From the NCBI GenBank assembly GCA_944392865.1, contig CALXYD010000014.1, positions 1 through 32,849 of the forward strand: 32,849 nt of DNA, in the 5' to 3' direction. The notes under the pieces were generated by a model. The model was not told where the DNA came from. It made no database searches and worked only from the letters and a program-made list of their open reading frames with translations. Both the position numbers and the translations under genes were made by a program. Of this stretch, positions 23,983-28,775 are shown piece by piece. Every line of letters begins with the position of its first letter. Positions within the stretch are counted from its first letter, which is position 1. The DNA comes from an uncultured Alphaproteobacteria bacterium (GTDB taxonomy: Bacteria > Pseudomonadota > Alphaproteobacteria > RF32 > CAG-239).

Positions 23983-25521
23983 TTAAAACCTGTAAACTAC
24001 TCCTATTGATATTTCCGTTTCATTATTATTGTGCTTATATTTGTTTATTTCTGCATAAACTTCGTTGTTATGTGAAATTTTGTATCCGGTATATAGTTTA
24101 TACTTTCTGTTGTAGTTCATATTTTTTCTTTGATTGGCATAGATTGCTTCAAACGATGTTGATATTTTTATTTTATCCGAAAAATTAATTATACCTCCGA
24201 TCTCTGGGGATATGTATAAATTTTCTCCTTTATTATGTCTATACCCAAGTTTTATTAACGTATAGAATGTTATGCCCATGCGTTCTGAACCTATACCTCG
24301 CCCTATTTCTATGGTTGGTTTAAGATTTGAAGTATATTCGTGCAAATTATTTTCAAATGCTAATTTAAAATATTGTGAGTAATCTTGTTCAATAAAATAA
24401 TCTAATATTGATTTTGTTTTTATAATATTTATGCTTTGAATAAATGCTTTTTTGCCAGTATAACCTAACTCAATTTCTCCCAACTTGCTCTCCATCTCAT
24501 CATAATATGAATTATTTTTATCATTTATGTCCTGATAGACCGGGCTTAATTTTAAGTTTATATGATTTTTGTTTGTGTTATGGTAGCTTATTTCAATACG
24601 ACTAGGGTTATTTGTTGTTAAAATATCTTTTACTCCATGTCGGGATATTTTTGATTGCGCATATTTTGTCGGAATAAGCGTAATTTTTTTGATTTTTTTC
24701 TTCTTTTTTAGATACTTGATATATTCTATGGGCGTTATAAACGGTTTAGATTTCTTTATATCAAAATCTTGATTTGCTATTTTTAATATATTTATAATTG
24801 CAGAGGAGCAATTATTTGAAATCAGAGAATATTTAATATTCTTTCCTCTCAATTCCCAAATATGTTGTTTTATTAAATCTATTTCTTCCGGTGTTAATGT
24901 TATAGTAAATTCCCAAATTGACCTTTTTTCCTTACCTAGATAAGTTTGCATCTTATCTCTATATGGAGATAAAGAGTAAACTCCATTTAATTCTGCCATA
25001 ATCATTTTAATGTATTTGTCTGGTTTATTGTCCAATATGGCTGAATAGCTTAATGCGTGCTCTATTTCTTTGTTTTGTACCTTTCCCGTCAATTTTAAGA
25101 ATGTGTGTCCCATTACGGAAGATGGGTAAAGATTATTTTCTGCGGCAAAAACAATAGATACCTGATCAATTGGAACTTTTGACCAATATTCTTTATACTC
25201 TTTACAAATGGAAGTGTCATACTTTCTTTTTTCTGATTTTATTATATAATTATATCTTGCTGGATAATTGCAAACAGTTTGTTTTTGTTTATTACCTTGA
25301 AACAGCGCATTTAATGTTGCCACGTATTCGGCTTTTGGATTTCTATAACCTTGTGTTGACAAGAAAAAATTACTGTCTGCATTTATGGTACTCTTTTCAC
25401 CTACGTAATGAAGTAAATTTTTCCATTCTTCGGAGTTATATGGTTCTATATTAACTCTAGCATTTGCCGAAGTTCCTATTAACCATACAACTCCACAAAA
25501 TATTTTTATAAATAATTTCAT
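23983..25521 (-). CDS. DUF4105 (Lnb N-terminal periplasmic domain) protein with beta-barrel-like C-terminus
   Basis: The 512-residue product has a signal peptide (about 1-21, ending SANA), a DUF4105 domain with the marker motifs CNYPARY (84-90), SSVMGHTFLK (134-143) and NNCSS (236-240), and a C-terminal third (about 335-512) of alternating polar and aromatic strands ending in F, typical of outer-membrane strands. Conserved His139 and Cys238 could form a Cys-His hydrolase pair; that is inferred from the motifs, and the substrate is unknown. The first ATG overlaps the lipoprotein stop (TAATG), so the two are translationally coupled. Its sequence is visibly AT-richer than sufB and topA on either side, which suits later acquisition or relaxed selection. 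Confidence 0.85.
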   Translation of the reverse strand: MKLFIKIFCGVVWLIGTSANARVNIEPYNSEEWKNLLHYVGEKSTINADSNFFLSTQGYRNPKAEYVATLNALFQGNKQKQTVCNYPARYNYIIKSEKRKYDTSICKEYKEYWSKVPIDQVSIVFAAENNLYPSSVMGHTFLKLTGKVQNKEIEHALSYSAILDNKPDKYIKMIMAELNGVYSLSPYRDKMQTYLGKEKRSIWEFTITLTPEEIDLIKQHIWELRGKNIKYSLISNNCSSAIINILKIANQDFDIKKSKPFITPIEYIKYLKKKKKIKKITLIPTKYAQSKISRHGVKDILTTNNPSRIEISYHNTNKNHINLKLSPVYQDINDKNNSYYDEMESKLGEIELGYTGKKAFIQSINIIKTKSILDYFIEQDYSQYFKLAFENNLHEYTSNLKPTIEIGRGIGSERMGITFYTLIKLGYRHNKGENLYISPEIGGIINFSDKIKISTSFEAIYANQRKNMNYNRKYKLYTGYKISHNNEVYAEINKYKHNNNETEISIGVVYRF

Positions 25522-25928
25522 TACCTTATATATTGATCTTGATAATATGGATATCTTTCCGGCTCATTAACTTGCACAATTACATTATCATCATATTCCC
25601 ACATAGCTCCTGATGCCGAATCTGTTGTAGAACCGAAAAAGCCTCCCAATATGATATTTCCCCAAAACCAATTGTTCATTTTAGACGGTACTGTGGTTGT
25701 TTCCGTATTGTATCTATTATTCACTTTTACTATGATATCTCGTTTACTTTTTTGTACATTTATTGTTTGGGGTATTTGTGTTTGTCTAACACCATTTGCC
25801 GTATATATAGTGGCATTTGTTCTTCTACCATTGCTTGTTGTCAAATTAACATTCTGACTAGTCCCATCCATAATTGTAGCACATCCAACTAAAGGAGCAA
25901 CTACAAATATCAACATAAGTTTTTTCAT
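25521..25928 (-). CDS. Small lipoprotein of the GTSQ/WGNI-type family
   Basis: I start at ATG 25928, ten bases after AGGAG; the frame extends to 25955, but that ATG precedes the SD. The 135-residue product has a lipobox signal (APLVGC, Cys16), then CATIMDGTSQNVNLTTSNG, a beta-rich middle with PQTINVQKSKRDIIVKVN, and a glycine-rich stretch WFWGNIILGGFFGSTTDSASGAMWEYDDNVIVQV before a tyrosine-rich tail. This layout (C-A-T-I-x-x-GT-S/T-Q, then W-G-N-I-x-x-G-G) is that of a widespread group of envelope lipoproteins with no assigned function. It is the first gene behind the terminator of the RNA at 25958-26222, with no room for its own promoter, and is followed by the DUF4105 gene. Confidence 0.85.
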   Translation of the reverse strand: MKKLMLIFVVAPLVGCATIMDGTSQNVNLTTSNGRRTNATIYTANGVRQTQIPQTINVQKSKRDIIVKVNNRYNTETTTVPSKMNNWFWGNIILGGFFGSTTDSASGAMWEYDDNVIVQVNEPERYPYYQDQYIR

Positions 25929-25957
25929 AACTTTCATTCTCCTGTTTTTGTTCATGT

Positions 25958-25984
25958 AAAAAAAATCGCCTAAATTGAGGCGAT
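25958..25984 (-). terminator. Intrinsic terminator directly before the lipoprotein SD
   Basis: On the minus strand ATCGCCT and AGGCGAT (plus 25965-25971 and 25978-25984) form a seven-pair stem with a six-base loop, followed by eight U (plus 25958-25965). The lipoprotein SD AGGAG follows about 15 bases later, so read-through of this terminator must decide expression unless an internal promoter exists. Confidence 0.88.
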
Positions 25985-26222
25985 CGGAGAGTTAGAAAAT
26001 CATGTTTACTGAAATGACCGTTTTAGCCTTTAAAGCCAACAGAGCTTCTGAACATACGCTAGAACCTCCCCGACCATTTGACAGTCGGGGATATATTTAT
26101 TGTTTCCGCATTTTGCAGATAACAATATGACGATACTATATCCAGCACCGCAGTAAACAACAGAGTTTTCTAAGACTCCGAGCTGCCTCCAGCTCTAACA
26201 CAATTAAAACTTTAACTGTGCT
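25958..26222 (-). ncRNA. Strongly folded ~265-nt leader RNA, riboswitch/attenuator-like, family not recognised
   Basis: The transcript runs leftward from about 26222. A 5' hairpin (plus 26199-26220) and a second hairpin GAGCTG-GAGG-CAGCTC (26180-26195) precede a long-range closing helix built of three blocks: CGGAG (26176-26180 with 25985-25989), TTAGAAAA (26166-26173 with 25992-25999) and GTTTACTG (26151-26158 with 26004-26011). Inside it lie a branch closed by GGATATA/TATATCC (26137-26143 with 26089-26095), which contains TATTGTT/AACAATA (26121-26127 with 26098-26104) and a CTGC/GCGG cap, and a C-rich hairpin CCCCGAC/GTCGGGG (26084-26090 with 26068-26074). The cap needs a G-U pair that exists only in the minus-strand RNA, which supports the strand. 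A terminator ends it directly before the lipoprotein SD. No tmRNA, RNase P, SRP or known riboswitch core was recognised. Confidence 0.7.
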
Positions 26223-26228
26223 TTTTTC

Positions 26229-26256
26229 AGGATAGCAAAATCGTCTGATTAGTCAA
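26229..26256 (-). promoter_or_regulatory. Promoter of the leader RNA and lipoprotein-DUF4105 operon
   Basis: On the minus strand TTGACT (plus 26251-26256) and TATCCT (plus 26229-26234) are 16 bp apart, placing the start near 26222, at the foot of the first hairpin. Confidence 0.6.
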
Positions 26257-26274
26257 GAAGATTATTTTCATTAT

Positions 26275-26304
26275 AAAAAAGGACGCTTTAAGGCGTCCTT
26301 TTTG
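26275..26304. terminator. Terminator of topA (bidirectional)
   Basis: GGACGC (26281-26286) pairs with GCGTCC (26293-26298), flanked by an A run on the left and a T run on the right. On the minus strand it ends the plsY-dprA-topA transcript, between topA and the leader RNA promoter. Confidence 0.85.
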
Positions 26305-26321
26305 TATGAGTTTTTAAGAAT

Positions 26322-28775
26322 CTATTTTGCGCTATCAATGATTTTTTGTGCGTCTTCAAATGTCAAATCTTTGCCTCGCAATGCATTAGGTATCCGATAA
26401 TTATTTTTGCCGCATTTAACATACGGACCATAACGCCCAACTGCCAGCAAAATATTCTCTTTTAATTTCGGGTGAACACCCAAGACTTTCGCTTCCGGCT
26501 TTTCCACCGCGTTTTGCAAAAGTTCTTCTGCCCGCTCTTTGGTAATATTAAAAATATTATCATTACCGGTTAAAGATTTGGATTTTAGCCCTTGTTTGAT
26601 GTATTGGCCGAATTTGCCGATATTAACGGTTATGCCCTCGCCTAAATCTTTGGGCAGGCTTACCAGAGTTTCCGCCTGTTCAAAAGTCAGCGTTTCCGGC
26701 GTGACGAATCGGGGAAGAGCAATACGTTTCGGTTTTTCGGTTATCGCTGTTGCATCTTCGCCAAGTTGGACATAGAATCCATACGGCCCCTTTTTCAGAT
26801 AGACATTCAGCCCGTTGTGGCTGCCCAAAAGCTTATCTTCCGGATTGGGTTTCCTTTCCTGCCCCTGTTCCTCTTCATCCTTTGTATCCGTCAAAGGTTT
26901 TGTATATTTACATTCCGGATAGTTGGAACACCCTAAAAACGCGCCGAATTTTCCTAATTTTATGCTCAGATGTCCTTTGTGACATTCCGGACATAAGCGG
27001 GAATCCGAGCCGTCTTCTTTGGGCGGAAAGAGATGATAGGACAAGACTTCATCAATTTTGTTGATTACTTCGCTGACTTGTAACGGCTGGACGGCCTGAA
27101 TATTTTTATAAAACTTGTGCCAGAATCCGGTCAGCAATTTTTTCCATTCCATCTCGCCGGCGGATACGTCATCCAAAAATTCTTCCATTTGTGCCGTGAA
27201 ATCATATTCCACATACTTTTTGAAGAAATTTTCAAGGAATATGGTTACGATACGCCCGCGATCTTCGGGTATAAAGCGCATTTTTTCAACTTTAACATAT
27301 TTGCGCTCCTGCAAGACGGCAATAATCGTTGCATACGTGGACGGGCGTCCTATTCCCAGTTCTTCCAGTTTCTTTACCAAACTTGCCTCGGTAAAACGCG
27401 GCGGCGGCGTGGTATAATGTTGTTCGGGCTTTATAGCCTTTTTGGCGACGGCTTCATCTACTTCAACATTCGGCAGTAAACGATTTTCATCGTCTTCATT
27501 TTCATCATCGCGGCTTTCCTGATATAATTTCAGAAAACCGTCAAAAGCGATGACCTGACCGTTGGCGCGTAACAAAATCTTTCCGTCTTGCGAAAGCGAA
27601 TCGATCACAACTTTATCTAAAACGGCCGGTTCCATCTGGCAGGCAATCGTCCTTTTCCATATCAATTCGTAAAGTTTATATGAATCCGCATCCAGCTTGC
27701 CCTCCATTTTTTTGGGCGTATTCATTACGTCTGCCGGACGAATCGCCTCGTGCGCCTCTTGGGCGTTTTTTGACTTGGTTTTATATTCTTTCGGGCTTTT
27801 CGGAAGATAATTTTCACCAAAATATTTTAAAATCGCCTCACGGCAGGCAGAAATTGCCTCAACGGAAAGGTTCACGGCGTCTGTTCTCATATAGGTAATA
27901 TAGCCGTTTTCATACAAGCTTTGGGCAACCTGCATTGTTTTTTTGGCTGGAAAACGCAATTTTCTTGCCGCTTCCTGTTGCAATGTGGAAGTTGTAAACG
28001 GCGGCGCAGGATAACGGTTAGCCTTTTTGCGCTCAATTTTGGATATTTTAAAATCCTGTGCTTCTATCTTGGCTTTTGCTTCTTCGGCCTTTTCTTTGGT
28101 GTTGATGTCAAATTTCTCCAGTTTCTTCCCGTCCAGATTTACCAGGTGGGAGGGAATCAGCGCTTTTTCCGCCGTTTCCAAGTCAACATCAATCGTCCAA
28201 TATTCTTCGGGCTTAAATTTTTCAATTTCCATCTCGCGGTCGCAAATCAACCGTAAAGCCACCGATTGGACACGTCCGGCAGACTTAGAGCCGGGAAGTT
28301 TGCGCCACAATACCGGAGAAAGCGTAAAACCTACAAGATAGTCAAGCGCACGGCGCGCCATATATGCAGACACAAGATTATCGTCTATCTGGCGCGGATT
28401 TTGAATAGCCTCGGTTACGGCGTGCTTGGTAATTTCATGAAAAACAACACGCTCAATTTTTTTATCTTTCAGTTTCTTTTTGGCTTTTAATTCTTCCAAC
28501 AAATGCCAGGCGATGGCCTCTCCTTCTCTATCCGGGTCGGAGGCGAGGATCAGTGTGTCGCAACCTTTTAAGGCCTCAATAATATCATTCAGACGTTTTT
28601 TTCCGCCAGAACTCAATTCCCAAACCATACTGAAGTCCTTATCCGGATCAACAGAGCCATCTTTGCTCGGCAAATCACGAATATGACCGTAGCTGGCAAG
28701 AACTTTATAGTCTTTGCCTAAATATTTATTTATCGTTTTTGCTTTTGCCGGAGATTCAACAACAACCAATTTCAT
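26322..28775 (-). CDS. topA: DNA topoisomerase I (type IA)
   Basis: TopA relaxes negative supercoils through a 5'-phosphotyrosine intermediate. The 817-residue product has the TOPRIM domain with catalytic E7 (VVVESPAKA) and the D-x-D-x-E signature at D80-D82-E84 (ASDPDREGE), the domain with the active tyrosine Y295 in GYITYMRTDAV, and GRPSTYATIIAVLQERKY. The C-terminus has one four-cysteine zinc ribbon (CPECHKGHLSIKLGKFGAFLGC then PEC) and two or three topoisomerase C-terminal repeats of the GPYVK type (for example KKGPYGFYVQLG, KFGQYIKQG and RYGPYVKCG). The protein is typical of alphaproteobacteria in length. It is the last gene of plsY-dprA-topA. Confidence 0.98.
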   Translation of the reverse strand: MKLVVVESPAKAKTINKYLGKDYKVLASYGHIRDLPSKDGSVDPDKDFSMVWELSSGGKKRLNDIIEALKGCDTLILASDPDREGEAIAWHLLEELKAKKKLKDKKIERVVFHEITKHAVTEAIQNPRQIDDNLVSAYMARRALDYLVGFTLSPVLWRKLPGSKSAGRVQSVALRLICDREMEIEKFKPEEYWTIDVDLETAEKALIPSHLVNLDGKKLEKFDINTKEKAEEAKAKIEAQDFKISKIERKKANRYPAPPFTTSTLQQEAARKLRFPAKKTMQVAQSLYENGYITYMRTDAVNLSVEAISACREAILKYFGENYLPKSPKEYKTKSKNAQEAHEAIRPADVMNTPKKMEGKLDADSYKLYELIWKRTIACQMEPAVLDKVVIDSLSQDGKILLRANGQVIAFDGFLKLYQESRDDENEDDENRLLPNVEVDEAVAKKAIKPEQHYTTPPPRFTEASLVKKLEELGIGRPSTYATIIAVLQERKYVKVEKMRFIPEDRGRIVTIFLENFFKKYVEYDFTAQMEEFLDDVSAGEMEWKKLLTGFWHKFYKNIQAVQPLQVSEVINKIDEVLSYHLFPPKEDGSDSRLCPECHKGHLSIKLGKFGAFLGCSNYPECKYTKPLTDTKDEEEQGQERKPNPEDKLLGSHNGLNVYLKKGPYGFYVQLGEDATAITEKPKRIALPRFVTPETLTFEQAETLVSLPKDLGEGITVNIGKFGQYIKQGLKSKSLTGNDNIFNITKERAEELLQNAVEKPEAKVLGVHPKLKENILLAVGRYGPYVKCGKNNYRIPNALRGKDLTFEDAQKIIDSAK

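Follow-up and report, generated by a model that had tools for sequence, protein, structure and literature searches.

What does the long structured RNA do that separates a promoter from a lipoprotein gene, with a terminator standing between the two? In the window (the whole stretch of 32,849 nt of DNA analysed here), a first-pass annotation had placed a promoter at 26229-26256, and TTGACT-16-TATCCT is present there on the minus strand. The elements that frame the RNA are as follows.

26229-26256, minus strand: sigma-70-type promoter with an extended -10 (TG before the -10 box).
25958-25985, minus strand: intrinsic terminator GATCGCCT-CAATTT-AGGCGATT with T-run (stem at 25985-25964, T-run ending at 25958).
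25939-25943, minus strand: Shine-Dalgarno (SD) sequence AGGAG, from the sequence.
25521-25928, minus strand: lipoprotein gene (MKKLMLIFVVAPLVGCA...), an ORF with its start codon at 25928 and without Pfam match.
23983-25521, minus strand: DUF4105-type gene next after the lipoprotein gene, from matches to the Lnb_N, DUF7843 and DUF7840 domains.

The start codon at 25928 is the first with a proper SD past the terminator. Since the SD sequence and this start codon adjoin the terminator, there is no room for a second promoter 3' of it, as the first-pass annotation had argued. The RNA from 26226 to 25958 was predicted to fold with a minimum free energy (MFE) of -102.7 kcal/mol compared with -61.2±4.5 kcal/mol for 200 shuffled sequences (z = -9.27), none of which folded as well. 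The earlier statement that no known riboswitch core is recognizable was borne out, since no Rfam 15 family matched the window or the relatives of the leader at threshold and none of the Rfam 15 riboswitch classes was matched by the leader or by the cores of its relatives. Searches with Rfam and ARAGORN likewise returned no match of the leader to T-box, c-di-GMP, 6S, SRP, tmRNA or RNase P RNAs.

BLAST found three copies of the RNA in the genome of origin and copies in 15 of the 18 genomes of the genus. Twenty-four copies were aligned (alignment A1) with a structure written by hand, and a covariance model, R1, was built from this alignment. R1 also identified three copies in the genome of origin, and matches in 16/18 genus genomes, 107/126 sampled genomes of the family (14/16 genera) and 128/153 genomes of the order sample, the sampling by taxon being approximate and the searches over 40 genomes run with stricter filters by which weak matches are lost. 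The highest copy numbers in single genomes of 1.2-1.6 Mb were 88 (in a 1.6-Mb genome), 73, 61 and 54. Matches were found in 22 of 289 genomes of the class sample, four of these 22 from the same family, and in the phylum sample the matches were alphaproteobacterial except for a single weak and partial one from outside the class. A DNA pattern derived from the core matched more than 119 contigs, and R1 matched every one of the 80 that were fetched, in one case only weakly (13.9 bits). Pattern-matched contigs were from Rhizobium, Mesorhizobium, Methylobacterium, Sphingomonads, Roseovarius and Acidocella, and from Acidobacteria, for example Granulicella and Terriglobus. Degraded copies also occur, one with the 3' half of the core only (L017) and one with the 5' part only (L027). 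The RNA comprises the following parts.

26197-26222, minus strand: 5' hairpin 1 of the MFE fold, in some copies only.
26180-26195, minus strand: hairpin P0, GAGCTG-GAGG-CAGCTC, the second hairpin of the first-pass annotation; the hairpin is kept and its loop varies.
25986-26179, minus strand: conserved core as matched by R1 (205 bits, E 9e-68; this sequence was in the training set).
26163-26178, minus strand: hairpin P1b, GAGT (26178-26175) with ACTC (26166-26163), from covariation; its loop pairs 3' in PK1.
26166-26173, minus strand: 5' strand of PK1, TTAGAAAA, pairing with TTTTCTAA at 25999-25992.
25992-25999, minus strand: 3' strand of PK1, TTTTCTAA, from covariation.
26151-26158, minus strand: 5' strand of P2, GTTTACTG, pairing with CAGTAAAC at 26011-26004.
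26004-26011, minus strand: 3' strand of P2, CAGTAAAC, from covariation, inside the loop of the small hairpin P8.
26000-26017, minus strand: hairpin P8, TCAT (26017-26014) with ATGA (26003-26000).
26131-26150, minus strand: hairpin P3, which covaries.
26099-26126, minus strand: hairpin P4 (ATTGTT..TCTG with CGGA..AACAAT), from covariation; absent from compact relatives.
26068-26090, minus strand: hairpin P5, CCCCGAC (26090-26084) with GTCGGGG (26074-26068), which competes with Pa.
26066-26075, minus strand: 5' strand of Pa, GGTCGGGGAG, from complementarity and covariation, pairing with CTCTCCGATC at 25991-25982.
25982-25991, minus strand: 3' strand of Pa, CTCTCCGATC, the last 4 nt of which are the terminator foot.
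26020-26065, minus strand: hairpin P6/P7 with internal loop CGTATGTTCAG / TTTAAAG and two-sided changes at all P6 and P7 pairs.

The leader RNA is a genuine conserved structured RNA with clear homologues. Among the 24 copies of A1, 92.3% of the pair cells were standard pairs compared with 77.9% in shuffled alignments, slid controls not exceeding about 50%, and two-sided changes numbered 195 cells compared with 65.5 in the shuffles, falling on 36 of the 55 pairs. Copies within a genus share descent, so that shuffles overstate significance, and the better evidence is a wide set of 101 sequences, all but one of which were outside the training set, mostly from non-gut Alphaproteobacteria and also from Acidobacteria. 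In this set 94.1% of cells were paired (71.3% shuffled, at most 49% slid) with 1051 two-sided change cells (295 shuffled); the alignment had been fitted to the structure and is biased towards it, but slid controls and shuffles were still far below. P1b was paired in 97% of cells with two-sided changes at three of its four pairs, PK1 had two-sided changes at all seven pairs (alignment A4), and P2, which is also found in members of the RF02221 type considered below, was 94% paired with two-sided changes at all eight pairs. The strands of P1b, PK1 and P2 differ among copies inside one genome, with compensation. A further possible contact joins GGATAT in the loop of P3 (26143-26138) to ATATCC (26094-26089); it is 99% paired but nearly invariant. 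The long-range closing helix in three blocks, which the first-pass annotation had drawn from the single sequence, is thus present in all its blocks and covaries strongly across homologues, with strong compensatory change at 26173-26166/25999-25992 and 26158-26151/26011-26004.

Two of the contacts considered were rejected. The outer helix GGAG/CTCC (26179-26176/25989-25986) is present in the window and covaries a little, but as a sole closing helix it is contested by P1b and Pa, which use the same strands. The antitermination contact proposed earlier between the GAGG loop of P0 and GCCTC of the terminator was abandoned, since the P0 loop varies freely among homologues and its complementarity to the terminator (30 of 102) was within the range of shuffled sequences (mean 23.4, maximum 33). 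The P6-P7 internal loop, TATGTYCA / AAAGG, is nearly invariant (A1 columns 144-154 and 183-188; approximately 26055-26045 and 26032-26027 in the window) and is a candidate ligand or tertiary site.

The position of the copies was evaluated with a rule-based, uncurated criterion requiring a start codon, an SD-like site and at least 50 codons at a distance of 25-140 nt. Same-strand SD-like sites and ORF starts were found in this interval for 162 of 193 copies, in 151 of them at 40-79 nt, while the divergent control gave an SD and ORF start for only 24 of 191. A terminator-like hairpin followed by a T-rich tail was present in 89/104 copies of the gut family, in nearly every case directly 3' of the core, and promoter-like sites (at least 9 of 12) were found upstream of 62/103 copies compared with 28.9 in shuffled upstream sequence. 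Judged by this arrangement, the copies are leaders of the genes behind them. The order promoter, RNA, terminator, SD and ORF is kept in homologues and the structure is kept by compensation, results in agreement with the first-pass reading of an attenuator- or riboswitch-like leader acting in cis. Copy numbers of 54-88 in some genomes, a patchy distribution and an association with plasmids and integrative elements are also what would be seen of a dispersed MITE-like repeat that multiplies by copying without any regulatory function; this explanation is very improbable given that the copies mostly keep one orientation and one distance to an ORF, and that helices differ among copies of one genome yet stay paired, indicative of selection on the RNA at each site. 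Among compact and distant relatives a T-run terminator was found in only 17 of 100. Many GC-rich compact relatives (for example L091, L209 and L216) have a conserved 3' hairpin, GCGGGGGCGYACCGC, between the core and the SD, the loop of which covaries with the P0 loop (ACGC with GGCG in 63/63, ACGT with GACG in 4/4), likely reflecting a loop-loop contact.

A cis-acting regulatory leader of the attenuator or riboswitch kind is the explanation that we favour with reasonable though not high confidence. The copies begin just after the promoter, the core ends exactly where the terminator starts, and the ORF follows about 40-80 nt downstream. Of the two long-range pairings of the core, PK1 joins the P1b loop to the strand that precedes the terminator, and P2 is the other. 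As in riboswitches, a conserved structured core lies in the 5' leader together with an expression platform; as in transcription attenuators, a terminator separates leader and gene and an alternative helix, with a short overlap, shares a strand with it. This helix is Pa, the 5' strand of which is also the 3' strand of P5 and the 3' strand of which ends in the terminator foot. The first-pass annotation missed Pa, a better-supported competing helix, as well as the fact that two of the helices form pseudoknots and that the RNA belongs to a large multi-copy family. In a wider set, which includes nine manually entered type B and Ti sequences, 98.9% of Pa cells were paired compared with 93.7% in shuffles (maximum 95.1%), with 31 two-sided cells compared with 1.7; Pa hardly varies within the gut family, where the 97.1% of cells paired exceed the shuffles only slightly (96.3%, maximum 96.95%). 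The terminator stem is in register with the end of the core, and the overlap with Pa is 3 nt in 76 of 89 gut copies. It reaches about five bases in L339 and L345, where the three strands covary at these shared positions. The sharing of strands among P5, Pa and the terminator foot has the layout of a switch, by which the leader probably turns the gene behind it on and off.

With GGTCGGGGAG paired backwards in P5, the terminator would be left whole and the gene off. With the same strand paired forwards to CTCTCCGATC in Pa, the core would be closed and the terminator foot taken, which would permit read-through; the Pa/PK1/P2 fold would be stabilised by a ligand or, possibly, by a protein or a co-transcriptional cue. 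Pseudoknot-free folding of the window leader gave -102.4 kcal/mol with P5 and the terminator and -79.7 kcal/mol with Pa enforced, a gap of about 23 kcal/mol in a comparison that ignores PK1, P2 and any ligand. Since folding prefers P5 with the terminator, off is suggested as the resting state, and the large gap may also mean that Pa is rarely formed. Since Pa and the terminator overlap in most copies by no more than 3-4 nt, their mutual exclusion may be incomplete. Where GC-rich relatives lack a T-run, a different 3' hairpin preceding the ribosome site would be the target of this core. Transcription-attenuating riboswitches with a closing helix that overlaps the terminator exist, for example the pbuE adenine riboswitch, in which the final core strand likewise doubles as the foot of the terminator stem. 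The leader differs from the pbuE type in having no Rfam 15 riboswitch match, a larger fold with two pseudoknots and an overlap of only 3-4 nt. Against the switch model stands the diversity of the genes served, which suggests no obvious ligand.

That diversity is what would be expected of a general element, and the large conserved fold, placed shortly after a promoter and immediately ahead of a terminator, recalls processive antitermination or protein-binding elements that modify RNA polymerase, such as put of HK022 and EAR of Bacillus, which are also leader RNAs before terminators near promoters. Such an element is rather improbable here: antitermination alone would be insufficient in the GC-rich relatives with so few T-run terminators, and the strand sharing of P5, Pa and terminator foot looks like a conformational switch. 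Furthermore, the leader has no Rfam match to epsC (EAR), and the taxa and genes differ from those of EAR and put.

The relation to RF02221 (sRNA-Xcc1), the nearest Rfam relative, bears on whether the RNA acts in cis. RF02221 gave no match at E<=5 in window positions 25800-26500, its gathering score of 53 bits not being reached. In sensitive mode the relatives L095 and L094 matched RF02221 over the 3' half with 37.2 and 27.2 bits (threshold 53). Intermediates were scored by both models (R1 and RF02221, in bits: L340/L095, 53.3 and 37.2; L345, 41.4 and 40.6; L339, 36.1 and 40.6), and R1 run without filters recovered the RF02221-found loci L345, L339 and L343 at the same place with E values of 1e-12 to 1e-8. 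These scores indicate homology of the leader RNA to RF02221 through the intermediates. The RF02221 outer stem corresponds to Pa, is present in the window and encloses the P6 and P8 hairpins, so that Pa, P6/P7 and P8 all have counterparts; the leader is longer, with P3/P4 extensions and with P5 competing for the Pa strand, whereas RF02221, which is described as trans-acting, models 87 nt confined to the 3' half. Thus, the databases know only a fragment of the family, filed as a small trans-acting RNA.

RF02221 was found in 47 of 249 genomes of the phylum sample, and the unmodelled 5' half was examined in 30 of its best members (L336 and L346-L375 among the loci). In these, the loop of a P1b-like hairpin pairs with the strand before Pa as in PK1, the longest match averaging 7.57 nt compared with 5.64 for shuffled partners (maximum 5.87). 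For P2 the values were 6.8 and 4.4; the 27 sequences compared, which were chosen for having P1b, had 24 different P2 strands. The upstream P1b, PK1 and P2 pairings therefore exist in RF02221 members and covary there. An ORF start followed within 140 nt in 25 of the 30, and the ORFs, read by eye, are presumably Bro-N-, KilA-N-, Rha- and SymE-like. The P6-P7 loop is replaced in RF02221 members by another conserved loop (AATACAA.. / GGGGAATA). Two RF02221-like members below threshold occur in the genome of origin, at G000:C8:40143-40226 and at G000:C10:349-431 (L342), the latter with the full 5' half. The radC motif (RF01754), considered from PMC2864571, had no match in relatives.

The first-pass annotation had left open an independent small RNA, that is, trans-acting sRNA genes with their own terminators that stand before ORFs by chance. 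The relative sRNA-Xcc1 is described in this way: it was cloned as cDNA, an 88-nt RNA by its RACE ends and about 100 nt on a Northern blot (PMC2996969), and is called trans-acting in literature cited by PMC12444791. A promoter of its own precedes each copy, and a strong terminator follows most of those in the gut family. This alternative is nonetheless unlikely given the constant distance to a same-strand SD and ORF, both in the R1 copies and in the RF02221 members, and the RNA has no conserved unpaired seed, its variable parts being engaged in internal pairs. An attenuated leader would yield the same short RNA, and in Xanthomonas integrons symE lies downstream of sRNA-Xcc1 according to PMC12444791 itself. 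Both the 88-nt RNA and this location would be accounted for by a leader that is processed or attenuated. A search of the literature outside subscription papers found no cis-regulatory description of RF02221.

In the gut family the genes behind the cis-acting leader encode BspA-type leucine-rich repeat proteins (11/75), type IV pilins (11), outer-membrane barrels (5), glycosyltransferases (3), nuclease-like proteins (3) and many lipoproteins without Pfam family; porins are also among the products. In other taxa they encode HTH regulators (9/52), DUF2285-type proteins, now RovC_DNA-bd (6), TraM (5, two of them from plasmid traM genes that were deliberately included) and DUF5818 (3). The leaders carried by mobile elements serve TraM of Ti plasmids, DUF2285 regulators and HTH proteins. 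We take PF10074 to be the former DUF2285 and QseM-type antiactivators to belong there. Among plasmids, 385 records matched one such leader, 218 of them from Agrobacterium, and on pTiSule1 (L332, 5990-6240) and pAtK84b the RNA lies directly before traM, the gene for a quorum-sensing antiactivator; the Ti plasmid copy scored 18.2 bits with R1 (E 1e-4). No mapped traM transcription start was found in agrobacterial transcriptome papers.

The Ti traM leader, the DUF2285 leaders on integrative elements, integron sRNA-Xcc1 and the gut surface-protein leaders are joined in one superfamily with a defined fold, which suggests that what has been regarded as a trans-acting virulence sRNA is part of a cis-acting switch. 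We tentatively propose, as a possibility somewhat short of probable, that the family is a new riboswitch or RNA-sensor class, among the most widespread orphan leaders in Proteobacteria and misfiled as its 3' fragment sRNA-Xcc1, which controls regulators of mobile elements (TraM, DUF2285/QseM-like, Bro-N and SymE) and which, through amplification in one alphaproteobacterial family of the gut, makes up a regulon of as many as about 90 surface-protein operons under a single signal. A signal shared by conjugation control and surface proteins would be directly testable. Two other RNAs were detected near copies of the leader. The Rhizobiales sRNA Atu_Ti1 (RF02506) lies at 4351-4442 of L332 on the minus strand, antisense inside the conjugal transfer gene traB, and a cobalamin riboswitch (117 bits; L102, 2800-3014) is a separate element less than 1 kb downstream of a distant copy.
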